Shown: one piece after another, positions 4,303-18,637 of the stretch
How the letters are laid out: each line of letters opens with the position of its first letter
Position numbering within the stretch: position 1 is the first letter of the stretch
Assembly (NCBI GenBank): GCA_018902385.1
Contig: JABSSW010000117.1
Span: forward strand, 1-22,848
Direction: 5' to 3'
Source of the DNA: Physcia stellaris
Taxonomy: Eukaryota; Ascomycota; Lecanoromycetes; Caliciales; Physciaceae
DNA length: 22,848 nucleotides
The notes under the pieces: generated by a model
The model's database searches: none
What the model was told of the DNA's origin: nothing
What the model saw: the letters and a program-made list of their open reading frames with translations, nothing else
Made by a program: the position numbers and the translations under genes

Positions 4303-4945
4303 GGCAAAATAAATAGATCTTTTCCGGGCCTTAACGTTCGGAGGCTGCCGGACGTATCCATAGTAGCACACGTCAAGAGGCCTGACTACGCACCTCAGAC
4401 TGCTAATGACATTGATTCAGCACCTCTGCATATAGCGATATAGAGGTTAAAGCAAGTCGGCCAGTGAAGCGATGATGTATAATGTATGGAGTAAGCGATG
4501 GTTCCATACCTTAAGGTACCCCCTCGTCCTCTATTCGTATTAGCAACTCAGGGTTCAATGACTAGCGCACTCGGCTCCGGGACGATCAAGCGGACCTTGC
4601 TTGGCGCTTGGCATGCAGATCACAGGGCAGGTGGAGTCGTCCAGAATCGGCCCTTTTGACAGGGTCCAGCTCTCCAGGACAGCTTGCGAACTCTTCACCA
4701 GCTCTCCCATGTACTTTGTCCATCACGCGCAGCTGAAGGTGACAGTGCGAAAACAGACAATCAAAGGCGCGGATTTGTTCGGGGACCCAAGACATGATAC
4801 TGCAGCATAACATGTCGGAGAAGATCTTCCGTCGCACGCCACCGATTGCGAATATTCCATAGTCAAGGCGACATCCGAGTTGGATTGTTAAGCCCCCGGT
4901 CCAAGATCCCTGTCCCAGACCTTTCAGCCTCGGACTTCAACGGTC
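4303..4945. promoter_or_regulatory. divergent intergenic region shared by ATG17 and the sconB-like gene
   Basis: About 640 bp separate the two start codons, so both promoters must lie here. Open frames around 4586-4837 run on both strands, match no family and are taken as chance. I found no clear TATA box and no obvious palindromic bZIP site of the sulfur-regulator kind (ATGRYRYCAT). Confidence 0.5.
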
Positions 4946-7078
4946 ATGACGGATACGGAGGGAGCGATGGCACCATCCAGAGTCTATGAAAGTATGGAGA
5001 ACCCTTCGAAACGTCGACGACTATCAGGACCGGCATTTCCAGAGAGTGCTCCCTCTGATTCTCAGAGGCCTCAAAATATGACACTTTCCCCATCACGTCT
5101 TAAGGATCTCGAGAAAGAACCAAAAGCTACAATCAACGGAAACATCACCATCTCTGCTACCTCAAAGCTGGCGGGACAGATCGTTGCCCCGTTCCTGGCA
5201 AAACACATCCCGGACCAATATGCTCCCTTAGGAGGGATGGATTCATCCGGAAGTCCTAAAGTCAAAGATTCGAATACAAAATACTGCTACAGACATCGGC
5301 CCGACTTGAAGTGTCGGAGGCAAGCCAACGAACCCTCCATGGACCAGCTTCAACATGTAGGTGGTTGCACATCTATGAACTATCAGGAGATGATTTTAAT
5401 TTACATAGGAGCTCGAGGTCCTATCCCACGCCGACCAGCAGGCTGTTGCACATGTCTGGTCTCTGTTCTCCGCTGCACCTTCGAAACAGAGGAATCTCAT
5501 GCTTCAAGGAATCCTTACCCAATGCTGCTTCCCACAGCTATCTTACCTTTCAGACAACGTCCGGGAACTCATTCGAATCGACTTTCTCAGCGCGCTGCCC
5601 TGTGAGCTGTCATTTAGGGTCTTGTGTTTCCTCGATACGACATCACTCTGCAAGGCCGCACAAGTGAGCCGAAACTGGAGAACGCTCGCCGATGATGATG
5701 TTGTATGGCATAGAATGTGCGAGCAGCATATCGACAGAAAATGCACCAAATGCGGCTGGGGCTTGCCATTGTTGGAGAGGAAAAGGCTAAGGGCTTCAAA
5801 GCGACAGATTCAACTGCGAGCTACTGGTCAAGGACTCAATGAATGGTCGCCCAACATCACGCCGTTACCGGAATTGGCTGATGAAATGCGTCAAATTGAT
5901 CAAGAGGTGGAGGAGGGAGCGTCAGGTCCCCTCACAACGTCACGTAATGAAGCCAAGCGGCCATTTCCACCCACTGAGCAGACAGACACGGATGATTCCT
6001 ATTTCCTACCTCGTGTACAAGCTTGGAAAGATGTATACAAGGACCGTTTCAAGGTTGGCGTTAATTGGAAGTACGGGCGGTATTCGATGAAAACCTTCAA
6101 AGGCCACAGTAACGGGGTTATGTGCCTCCAGTTTGATGAGAACATACTAGCGACGGGATCATATGACACCACGATCAAAATCTGGGACATTCACTCCGGC
6201 GAAGAGCTTAGGACCCTTCGAGGTCATAGCAGTGCAGTCCGAGCCCTTCAATTCGACGACACCAAGCTGATCAGTGGAAGCCTGGATTGCACCCTGAAAG
6301 TCTGGAATTGGGCAACTGGGGAATGCATCAAGACCTACGCCCAGCCTGACGGAATCATCGGTCTACATTTTGATTCCGCGATCCTCGCAGCCGGTTCAAG
6401 GGACGGTACGGTCAAAGTGTGGGAGTTCCAAGACAAGTCCACGTTTGTCTTACGCGGTCACACCGACTGGGTAAACGCCGTCAAAGTCGACTGCGTCTCG
6501 CGCACCCTGTTTTCCGCCTCAGACGACGGCTTTGTAAGGTTGTGGGACCTGGACACCAGAGCGTGCATCAAGATCTTCGAAGGACACGTCGGCCAAGTCC
6601 AGCAAGTCGTCGCCCTGCCCCCCGAATTCGAATTCGAACAAAACGACCACGACGACCACGACGGCGCATCTTCAACAACAACAAGCAGCAGTTCCCAAAA
6701 CTCCATCACCGAGCCCGCAGCCGCCTCCCCTACTTCAGACTCCTTCGGTCCAGGCTTCAGCGATTCCACACGCCGACTTCCCCCCCGCTACATCCTGACC
6801 GGCGCCCTCGACTCCACGATCCGCCTGTGGGACACCACGACGACGAAGTGCCTCCGCACATACTTCGGCCACGTGGAAGGCATCTGGGCGCTCGCGGCCG
6901 ACACGCTCCGCTTCATCTCCGGCGCCGAGGACCGCATGACGAAAGTGTGGGACCCCGGACCGGCAAGTGCGAGCGCACGTTCGCGGGCCATGCGGGACCC
7001 GTGACGTGCGTTGGGCTGAGCGACTCGCGCTTTTGCACCGCTGGGGAGGACTGCGAGGTGCGGATGTATAGCTTCTGA
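4946..7078 (+). CDS. sconB: SconB/Met30-type F-box WD40 protein (sulfur metabolite repression)
   Basis: This is the substrate receptor of an SCF ubiquitin ligase. In Aspergillus SconB, Neurospora SCON-2 and yeast Met30 it represses sulfur assimilation by acting on the bZIP activator. Exon 1 is 4946-5356 (137 codons) and ends at MDQLQH. A 52-bp intron (5357-5408, GTAGGT..TAG) follows, and exon 2 resumes in frame with [20 protein letters not shown]. Hallmarks in order: [20 protein letters not shown], the F-box from about residue 190 ([19 protein letters not shown]), [43 protein letters not shown], then seven WD40 blades to the end, [10 protein letters not shown]. One base is missing in the C run near 6955, shifting the frame just after VWDP; the next frame continues the family sequence to TGA 7076-7078. 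The intended length is about 693 residues. The third blade is atypical, and an Asp/His- and Ser-rich insert separates blades 5 and 6. Confidence 0.92.
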
Positions 7079-7805: not shown

Positions 7806-9435
7806 TTATGATAAAGCCTCTATAACCGTCATTTCCATCTTCAAACAAGTCTTCGAAAAAAAAAGTACCATATCATCCCTCAAACCGCCAAGGCTGCTGC
7901 CCACACTCTGCCAAACGCCGCAAACCCGCCGCTTGCATATCACACACGTATCGACGTCAACGTCGAGCTTCTCCAGCACCTCAGCGAGCAGCTGCGCGCC
8001 GATGGCATAGATGGGCACCGCCACGTTCGGGTTCGCCCGGGACGGATGTGGAACGGCATGTCGGAGCAGAAATGCATCGCCTCATTGAAGCGCACCCGCA
8101 GATCGACATCCGCGGGGTCCTCGCGGCCGCCGAACAGCTCGTGGATGACGGGCGTCATGCGGTCGTTGACCTCGGCGTACAGCTGCGTCAAGGTGTCCGA
8201 CGTGAAGTGGAAGTCGATGACCGCGGTGTCGTCGCGGAAGGCGAAACTGGCTTCGTGCCGCCCTTCGTGCAGCAGGTCGTATTTGCTGTTGTAGCTGTGC
8301 GCCAGCTTGCCCAAGTCGTAGTAGATGTCGCAGGACGGGTAGCCGCGGGGATCGATGAGCCAGAAGCGCCCGCCCGCGACGTCGCAGAGTATGTTCTCGA
8401 GATGCAGGTCCGAGTGGACGAACGGCGAGACGCCGCCAGGGTCGAGGCGCGCTCCGGCGGCTTTGTCTTCTTCTAGGCGCAGCAGCATGGCTGGGATGTT
8501 GGGCAGGTTACGTCCGTTCACTCGGAGCCAGCGCGCATTGACCAGCCCGTTGAAGTCTTCGTCCAGCTCGGTCGAGATTTGGATCCGTCGCCATACCCGG
8601 TCGTAGTGGTAGTCCTGCAAATAATTTTCTGGCGTGGGCTGTCGGTAGCTGCAGAAGGCTTGACGGTATTCGTATTTCAAAACTTGGCCAATCAGTTGTA
8701 CTGCCTCCGCAGGCCGGATCTGCAGGTTCAGAAGCAGATCTCGAAGGTTGGGGTATTCTTTGTACTCGATGTTCATGGAGACACCTCCCTCGTTCTTGGA
8801 CGCGGAGACCAGCTCAGGGTAATACTGTTGCAATGGCAGGGGCAGACTCTGGTAAAATCGGACCTCGTCATTTAGCTTGATCGCACCTCGCCCTTTCGCA
8901 TGTTTGTAGAAATATTTCCTGATTCCGGCTGTAGAAAAAGACCCACCAATGCGTAATGCGTCGGCGCTGTCGACTTGTTGCAGGGTATAATGGGCGATGC
9001 TGGGATTGTTTCTCAATGCTCGGACGATGCTGTCGAGCTTGGCGCCGTTGACCGTGGTGCTGTTAGGCTTGATACCGTTGAGCTGGGTGCCATTAAGGTT
9101 GTTAACGTTGCTGAAACCATTAAACTTGATATCACTCAGGTGTACTCGAGCCGCTGCTAGCTGTGCTTTGCCCCCAGTAGTCAGACTGCAATGCACGTGG
9201 GTAGTCGGACCGTACTCAGAGTCAAGCGACGGATAGCGAGGCTCGAGATGTCCTGAAGTGCACTTACTAGCACTACTTCGTCTTGTGTGCTGTAACGATG
9301 GTGAATGTCCGCTAAGTCGGTTTCCTCCTCAAGGGTCAACACTTCACTAATCCCATAGCACAACAGCAACTTTGTCAGTCTGGCACTAGCTTCGGCACAA
9401 GCAATACCATCCGTATCGAAGATGATTGCCAACAT
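7806..9435 (-). CDS. APH/choline-kinase-like phosphotransferase, bacterial capsule-cluster type
   Basis: The ATG at 9435 opens a 56-codon exon beginning LAIIFDTDGIACAE, which has a HAD-like DxDG. A GTAAGT donor (9267) and CAG acceptor (9186) define an 82-bp intron. Exon 2 then joins the long frame if one G in the run near 9171-9175 is surplus. The main body has a kinase-like N-lobe (RKYFYKHAKGRGAIKLNDEVRFYQSLP in pieces), a hinge-like MNIEYKEYPNLRDLL, catalytic HSDLHLENILCD (H codon at 8416-8414), a metal motif LIDPRG, and CDIYYDLGKLAHSYNSKYDLL. The HxDxxxxN plus IDPRG pairing and the YDLxKLxHS motif recall phosphotransferases in bacterial capsule and sugar-nucleotide clusters. A missing base near 8036 separates HIRPG from NPNVAVPIYAIGAQLLAEVL. 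The exact 3' end is uncertain; the stop at 7806 is the first in that frame, and a further intron is possible. An Asn-Gly-rich linker follows the intron. The substrate is unknown. Confidence 0.6.
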
Positions 9436-17947: not shown

Positions 17948-18637
17948 CTACTTACTAGTGTTTTCCACAGATTTCTGTGGCGGAGTGAATGGATACTGCC
18001 GCACGACAGGCAAGATCTTTTCAAACGCCTGATAAATCGTCTCCCTCGTCTTCGCCCCCGTGATTACGATCTTACCCCCATAGAAAATCAGCAGCACGGC
18101 TTTGGGATCGTACATATGATAAACGAGTCCCGGAAACCGCTCAGGTTCATGGCTGGCAAATTGCCTGTGATCCCTGGCAAGGTCGTCTATTTTTATCCCT
18201 TCATTTGCAGCACCCAAGGAGCCCGAGCCGACGATATTCTGGATCTTGAATTCCTTGAACGAAACACAATAGCCCTGCTTCTGCACGATCCGAGCATTTT
18301 TCCGCGCCGCGAGCCGGGCGTCGTCTTCGGATTTGGCGCCGGTGATTACCATCTTTCCACTTGCGAAGATCAGGGCGGTGGTTCTAGGCTCGCGGATGCG
18401 GACGACGACGGCGGAGAAGCGTTTCGGTGCGTACTCGGCGTTCCGGATGTGCTGGGCGAGATGAGTGAGATCGAGGTGGCAGCTGAGATCGCAACTGGCG
18501 ACAACGTTTTGGATCTGGGGGAGATTGCCATTGATAGGGATGTTGCGATCTGCGTGTGTTGTTGTAGGAGACGTAGTCGCAGGAGATGCTGTATTTGTTT
18601 GGGAAAATGTGCTCGTGTTGTTAATGTGAGATGCCAT
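17948..18637 (-). CDS. divergent TATA-binding protein (TBP-like), single uninterrupted exon
   Basis: TBP is the saddle-shaped DNA-bending subunit of TFIID. The ATG at 18637 gives 229 residues: a Ser/Thr/Asn-rich N-terminus (1-38), then two TBP repeats (about 39-127 and 128-215). Conserved: QNVV (N44) and QNIV (N134), RNAEYAPKRF (F74), REPRTTALIFASGKM (F91), GAKSEDD, FPGLVY (F168), VLLIF (F185), TGAKTRETIYQAFE. So all four intercalating phenylalanines and both minor-groove asparagines are kept. By alignment to yeast TBP, Y139 (TFIIA side) is N114, L189 (TFIIB side) is R167 and Y185 is H163. The start of repeat 2 (SGSLGAANEGIKIDDLA) is three residues longer and unlike any TBP I know. Canonical fungal TBP cores are nearly invariant, so this is likely a paralogue. 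A GTAAGT donor overlaps the stop region, so a short C-terminal exon ending at 17848 is possible. No indel is seen. Confidence 0.85.
   Translation of the reverse strand: MASHINNTSTFSQTNTASPATTSPTTTHADRNIPINGNLPQIQNVVASCDLSCHLDLTHLAQHIRNAEYAPKRFSAVVVRIREPRTTALIFASGKMVITGAKSEDDARLAARKNARIVQKQGYCVSFKEFKIQNIVGSGSLGAANEGIKIDDLARDHRQFASHEPERFPGLVYHMYDPKAVLLIFYGGKIVITGAKTRETIYQAFEKILPVVRQYPFTPPQKSVENTSK

Follow-up and report, generated by a model that had tools for sequence, protein, structure and literature searches.

The window analysed in this study is the whole of contig JABSSW010000117.1 of Physcia stellaris (assembly GCA_018902385.1; 22,848 nucleotides; C117 in the following), and its subject is a minus-strand gene at positions 17948-18637 that encodes a relative of the TATA-binding protein (TBP). 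Each of the three nuclear RNA polymerases makes use of TBP, the core of which is highly conserved among ascomycetes. The window gene is a paralogue and not the ordinary TBP of the genome, because an ordinary, intron-bearing TBP gene is present on contig C2 and the window protein matches its product at only 108 of 175 core positions. Judged by its sequence, it is a real, old TBP paralogue of a filamentous ascomycete and has been kept under selection. As regards its function we infer, with slightly more confidence than doubt, an old, lineage-retained ascomycete paralogue that probably derives from reverse-transcribed TBP mRNA and would act as a promoter-selective TBP-related factor.

Identification of the paralogue

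Positions 17948-18637 (minus strand) hold exactly one intact, intron-free open reading frame (ORF) of 229 amino acids plus stop, with the start ATG at 18637-18635 and the stop codon at 17950-17948; the coordinates and the single-exon state had both been given correctly in a preliminary description of this DNA. The complete protein matched the Pfam TBP family (PF00352) with an expectation value (E) of 2.4e-61 and 204 bits (cut-off 22.9), and each of its two repeats separately exceeded the curated cut-off. When the PDB was searched with the protein sequence, the TBP of Chaetomium thermophilum was returned as the top match (E 2.8e-68), and all 35 distinct PDB sequences matching at E 1e-5 or better were TBPs. 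In its structural model the paralogue is predicted to fold as a TBP saddle.

The assembly (43.97 Mb, 147 contigs) was searched with PF00352. Three gene loci matched: the gene in the window, its near copy on contig C35, and a split gene on C2. A protein search of the assembly returned no place beyond these three. The core region of the C2 gene carries three introns, located within the Q68 codon, after K97, and within the D236 codon (residue numbers such as these, Y139 or L189 follow yeast TBP). The paralogue has the same two-repeat fold as ordinary ascomycete TBP (Spt15); unlike it, ordinary TBPs are nearly invariant, the C2 core being identical to that of C. thermophilum at 167/175 positions, to yeast at 158/175, and to Arabidopsis at 148/175. 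Its greater closeness to C. thermophilum is the ground on which the organism is treated here as a filamentous ascomycete. The corresponding values for the paralogue are 108/175 (62%) against the C2 TBP, 109/175 against C. thermophilum, 109/175 against yeast, and 106/175 against Arabidopsis. A canonical TBP would be recognised by a near-invariant core and by being the sole TBP gene, and the window gene has neither feature. The suspicion voiced in the preliminary description that this is probably not the canonical TBP, which hung on another TBP being present in the same genome, is borne out by the ordinary, intron-containing gene on C2. For 30 ascomycete genomes, mostly of Fusarium, the available text of one survey places TBP among 14 families with an expansion index of 1 and strong orthologous conservation (PMC9934661).

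Conserved and altered residues

Residues were compared with the TBPs of C2, C. thermophilum, yeast, and Arabidopsis as references, 143 positions being identical in all four; the paralogue is altered at 41 of these. In a leave-one-out control, changes were counted at 1 of 144 positions for the C2 TBP, 1 of 144 for C. thermophilum, 3 of 146 for yeast, and 14 of 157 for Arabidopsis, and the paralogue was changed at 42/144, 42/144, 44/146, and 49/157 positions against the same trios. By this control the divergence of the paralogue is beyond chance or ordinary drift.

Repeat 1 (N-lobe; 18278-18520, minus strand; PF00352 E 2.4e-32) keeps F74, F91, N44, and the basic patch, and carries the changes Y139N (N114) and K151S (S126). 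Repeat 2 (C-lobe; 17993-18253, minus strand; PF00352 E 6.2e-25) keeps F168, F185, N134, E164, and E166, and is altered by Y185H (H163; Leu in the C35 copy), L189R (R167), R196H, V208Y, and S209G. The four Phe residues correspond to yeast F99, F116, F190, and F207, and the two Asn residues to yeast N69 and N159; we take them to be the DNA-intercalating and the minor-groove residues of the paralogue, respectively. An intercalating role is supported for F116/F305 in the available part of PMC7221094. Also kept are R90, N91, R137, K138, R141, K145, E186, P187, and E188, K133 being conservatively replaced by Arg. All residues named in the preliminary description (the four Phe, the two Asn, and the replacements of Y139, L189, and Y185) were recovered as stated there, and the alignments likewise confirmed its longer loop at the opening of repeat 2: the rewritten segment (residues 139-147; 18197-18223, minus strand) exceeds its counterpart in the reference TBPs by three residues. 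This loop is modelled less confidently, with a mean pLDDT (predicted local distance difference test score) of 75 for residues 141-150.

The expectation stated there that the protein should still bind and bend DNA was drawn from the Phe and Asn residues; on the DNA side, two C-lobe changes that it does not mention, R196H and S209G, break positions shared by all archaeal and eukaryotic TBPs aligned. Y185, R196, and S209 occur in all four eukaryotic references and in every one of the 21 archaeal TBPs aligned (out of 38 loci retrieved); R196 and S209 presumably contact the DNA backbone. Outside the two repeats, the protein begins with a Thr/Ser/Asn-rich extension (residues 1-37; 18527-18637, minus strand) that is predicted to be disordered (pLDDT below 50 for residues 1-36), and it ends with a tail (residues 216-229; 17951-17992, minus strand) that is longer in the alignment than the short end of ordinary TBP and has low model confidence at its end.

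Partner surfaces and candidate partners

In the available text of PMC7221094 the glutamates at C.L3.2 and C.L3.4 (human E284 and E286) are described as TFIIB contacts, the basic cluster of the N-lobe as a common site for TFIIA, Mot1, TAF1, and Brf1, and the basic patch and E-P-E motif as being used by Brf1 as well. The matching of human E284/E286 to yeast 186/188, and of the basic cluster to yeast numbers, is our own. In the TFIIA and TFIIB interface lists, the residues named in that paper are taken from print, and the others from the preliminary description and general background. Both glutamates, by which a TFIIB-recruiting TBP is recognised, are present in the paralogue (E164 and E166), and on these criteria the principal sites for partners are kept and their edges changed. 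The earlier proposal of altered TFIIA and TFIIB surfaces is partly right, Y139N, K151S, Y185H/L, and L189R being real, but was overstated, in that K138, the N-lobe basic patch, E186, and E188 are kept.

The clustering of changes beside E186/E188 would suit a repressive decoy that occupies TATA boxes or sequesters TFIIA or Mot1, assembles poorly with TFIIB (L189R, Y185H/L), and thereby lowers transcription from TATA promoters; animal TLF is reported, in the available text of PMC3142196, to sequester TFIIA and to inhibit TATA promoters. Such a decoy is considered unlikely, as both glutamates described as conserved TFIIB contacts are kept, and R196H and S209G would weaken rather than strengthen the occupancy of DNA.

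Profile searches of the assembly gave one match for TFIIA gamma and one for TFIIA alpha/beta (PF02751 and PF03153, one each), and no duplicated TFIIA was found by them. TFIIB repeats were found at four loci, on C5, C2, C46, and C12. The C5 locus carries the TFIIB zinc ribbon, and the C2 locus, read from its open frames, is presumed to be Brf1. The remaining two are divergent, single-repeat TFIIB-like open frames: that on C46 (C46:275321-275536, minus strand; L020:1405-1836; PF00382 E 2.8e-8) seems to extend across introns and is preceded by a long low-complexity stretch, and that on C12 (C12:605698-605928, minus strand; L021:1219-2070; E 7.9e-6) also gives a weak Cyclin_N match. Both have an Arg aligned with human TFIIB R169 (residue number by our own count), a residue that we assume to contact E284. 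The rewritten C-lobe edge of the paralogue (Y185H/L, L189R, R196H, S209G, and the longer loop) might pair with the C46 or the C12 protein instead of ordinary TFIIB and so give a set of promoters a TBP-TFIIB pair of their own, partly separate from the ordinary one. This is thought quite improbable; the two frames are its basis, and nothing links them to the paralogue. Separate TBP-TFIIB pairs, which follow a comparable logic, are described for large DNA viruses in the available part of PMC7221094.

Second copy and selection

The second copy of the paralogue is located at C35:284432-285118 (94% protein identity). The window is collinear with C35 at about 264.2-289.4 kb in three blocks (89.2, 95.8, and 90.2% identity), C35 being about 2.1 kb longer between two of them. 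Because the divergence between C117 and C35 is a mosaic (0.6-11.9% per 1 kb bin), the two contigs look like two haplotypes, and a recent segmental duplication is disfavoured by the same pattern. Positions 4892-7004 of the window were found at two places in the assembly; a sample of the C2 TBP region and C35:261000-263399 were found at one place each, which weighs against a simple two-haplotype reading of the C35 copy. Transitions number 612 against 439 transversions, and C/T differences are not over-represented in front of A; repeat-induced point mutation was therefore rejected as the source of the differences between C117 and C35.

The C35 copy is altered at all 41 changed positions except yeast L172, where Leu is kept, and it has a different changed residue at Y185 and Y231. 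Consensus or sequencing error, which the preliminary description had named as a possible source of the unusual residues, is rejected, since these states recur on a separate contig.

When the two copies were compared over 229 codons, 30 synonymous and 14 non-synonymous differences and no indel were counted, corresponding to a synonymous divergence (dS) of 0.213, a non-synonymous divergence (dN) of 0.027, and a dN/dS of 0.127; the probability of 14 or fewer non-synonymous differences among 44 without selection is 4.4e-10. Applied to seven further open frames in the window, the same script gave dN/dS values of 0.086-0.430 (eight rows, with the RIO region included twice; some frames may hold intron or shifted sequence). 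The dN/dS of 0.127 together with the lack of indels shows purifying selection on the paralogue, which would accordingly have a function, of a type that selection does not specify. Seven of the 175 core residues differ between the copies, six of them in the C-lobe, and by these comparisons the paralogue evolves faster than ordinary TBP.

Age and origin

Between the paralogue and the C2 TBP the synonymous proportion reaches 0.80 (saturated; dN 0.29; 165 codons), and because of this saturation the duplication is, on the codon comparison, old and the paralogue retained. The small contig and the intron-free state, as in processed pseudogenes, could point to a recent duplicate or a decaying pseudogene. 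This has next to no probability: a pseudogene is rejected by two intact copies with no indel and the low dN/dS, and a recent duplication by the saturated synonymous change.

The coding sequence of the paralogue is continuous at each of the three sites where the C2 gene has an intron. Apart from the TBP genes themselves, the window and a 9.9 kb segment of C2 surrounding the ordinary gene had nothing in common at the thresholds used. Since the three introns are absent and no other similarity is shared, the gene probably originated by retroposition of a TBP mRNA; the loss of parental introns and the location on different contigs are those of a retroposed copy, on the assumption that the parent had introns at the time. 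Retroposition, as suggested in the preliminary description, is consistent with the lack of introns and of shared C2 flanks, but is not proven. The duplication is too old for a poly-A relic or a target-site duplication to be expected.

A tree was calculated with the four references and an outgroup of 4 of the 38 archaeal loci. In the approximately unbiased (AU) test the p values were 0.954 for a placement of the paralogue outside the four references, 0.122 for a sister position to Pezizomycotina, 0.112 to ascomycetes, 0.0535 to the C2 TBP, and 0.028 to yeast. With this sampling the placement was not settled, and tree-based dating failed. The outside position is probably due to long-branch attraction; it would also fit acquisition from another organism (another fungus, a protist, or a large DNA virus) in place of duplication within this lineage. 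We regard acquisition as having little probability, as the best-ranked viral model in BFVD has an identity of only 23%, no IMG/VR contig encoding a relative was found by the scan used, all 38 matches in the prokaryote collection are archaeal TBPs (28-45% identity), and the GC content at third codon positions (0.617) is close to that of the C2 TBP (0.630). A viral origin in particular is disfavoured by the distant BFVD match and the IMG/VR scan.

Comparison with known TBP-related factors

For insect TRF1, the available text of PMC3142196 reports 63% identity to TBP, binding to TATA, and association with Brf1. The paralogue resembles it in standing alongside an ordinary TBP, in its comparable core identity (62%), and in its kept intercalating Phe residues; it differs in belonging to another lineage, where an independent duplication is likely (the tree holds no insect sequence), and in that the partner of TRF1 is known. 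The similar identity, and the retention of the basic patch and E-P-E motif that Brf1 reportedly uses (PMC7221094, available part), would agree with a TBP specialised for RNA polymerase III (or I) in the manner of TRF1 with Brf1. This is held to be decidedly unlikely, since this genome has an ordinary TBP, which should be expected to take on that task as it does in yeast.

Like animal TLF (TRF2, TBPL1), the paralogue is a divergent, faster-evolving second TBP. Unlike TLF, for which an identity of about 40% and a failure to bind TATA are reported in the available text of PMC3142196 and a Trp at N.L5.1 in that of PMC7221094, it has an identity of 62% and a Phe (F91) at N.L5.1. Vertebrate TBP2 (TRF3, TBPL2) shares the TBP saddle, which is predicted here, but its core is reported to be 95% identical to that of TBP (PMC3142196, available text). 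Among unicellular or lower eukaryotes, Entamoeba histolytica likewise has a divergent second TBP, TRF1, which belongs, however, to an unrelated lineage and has a reported identity to EhTBP of 42.6% (PMC5842622, available text). TBP paralogues are described for animals in the available part of PMC7221094 and, taken together, mainly in animals and some protists. Among the papers listed, the literature search, outside which most subscription papers lay, did not turn up any TBP paralogue from a fungus; this does not prove that none has been published.

Proposed role of the paralogue

In the favoured reading as a promoter-selective factor, reverse transcription of a TBP mRNA probably founded the paralogue. 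Its predicted saddle would insert the four conserved Phe residues into TATA-like minor grooves, the N-lobe basic patch would still be offered to TFIIA, Mot1, TAF1, and Brf1, and the C-lobe would present its E-P-E motif to TFIIB or Brf1. Y139N, K151S, Y185H/L, L189R, the repeat-2 loop, and the two weakened C-lobe positions (R196H and S209G) would shift affinity for DNA and partners, such that the paralogue would serve some promoters or conditions and the C2 TBP would do the general work.

Several points weigh against this proposal. The DNA face is not significantly spared, 5 of 30 positions taken as DNA-facing being changed in comparison with 36 of 113 other positions (Fisher p 0.117). Binding of DNA by the C-lobe could suffer from R196H, S209G, and V208Y, and that of TFIIB from L189R. 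The tree fails to tie the paralogue to fungal TBPs, its best placement lying outside all four references. The C35 and C117 copies may be alleles, in which case dN/dS is a short-range measure.

The paralogue may be an unstudied alternative transcription-initiation factor. A long-kept, selected second TBP in fungi would allow the direct study of how a constrained general factor duplicates and specialises, and in this group, which is open to simple genetics, it could be asked whether core machinery is switched by stage or condition.

Other features of the window and assembly

Outside the aligned part of C35, a dispersed repeat is present at C35:292799-296299 (L012:3000-6500), with 40 matches scored among 61 candidates, many at 90-93% identity; it may be the cause of an assembly break nearby. 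Window positions 5409-7004 hold an F-box/WD40 gene, presumably Met30/sconB-like, that shows one-base gaps relative to C35 and, according to the ORF list, has its WD40 end in an adjacent frame; these irregularities are either sequencing errors or real frame changes. The sole above-cut-off match to 5.8S rRNA in the assembly lies around C41:45899-46052 (L015), in a very AT-rich copy that, judged by eye, looks damaged by C-to-T/G-to-A changes as in repeat-induced point mutation. For the open frame at window positions 7943-9328 (minus strand), dS between the C117 and C35 copies is only 0.022; the TBP paralogue, at a distance of 9 kb, has 0.213. The low value reflects either haplotype exchange or strong local conservation.
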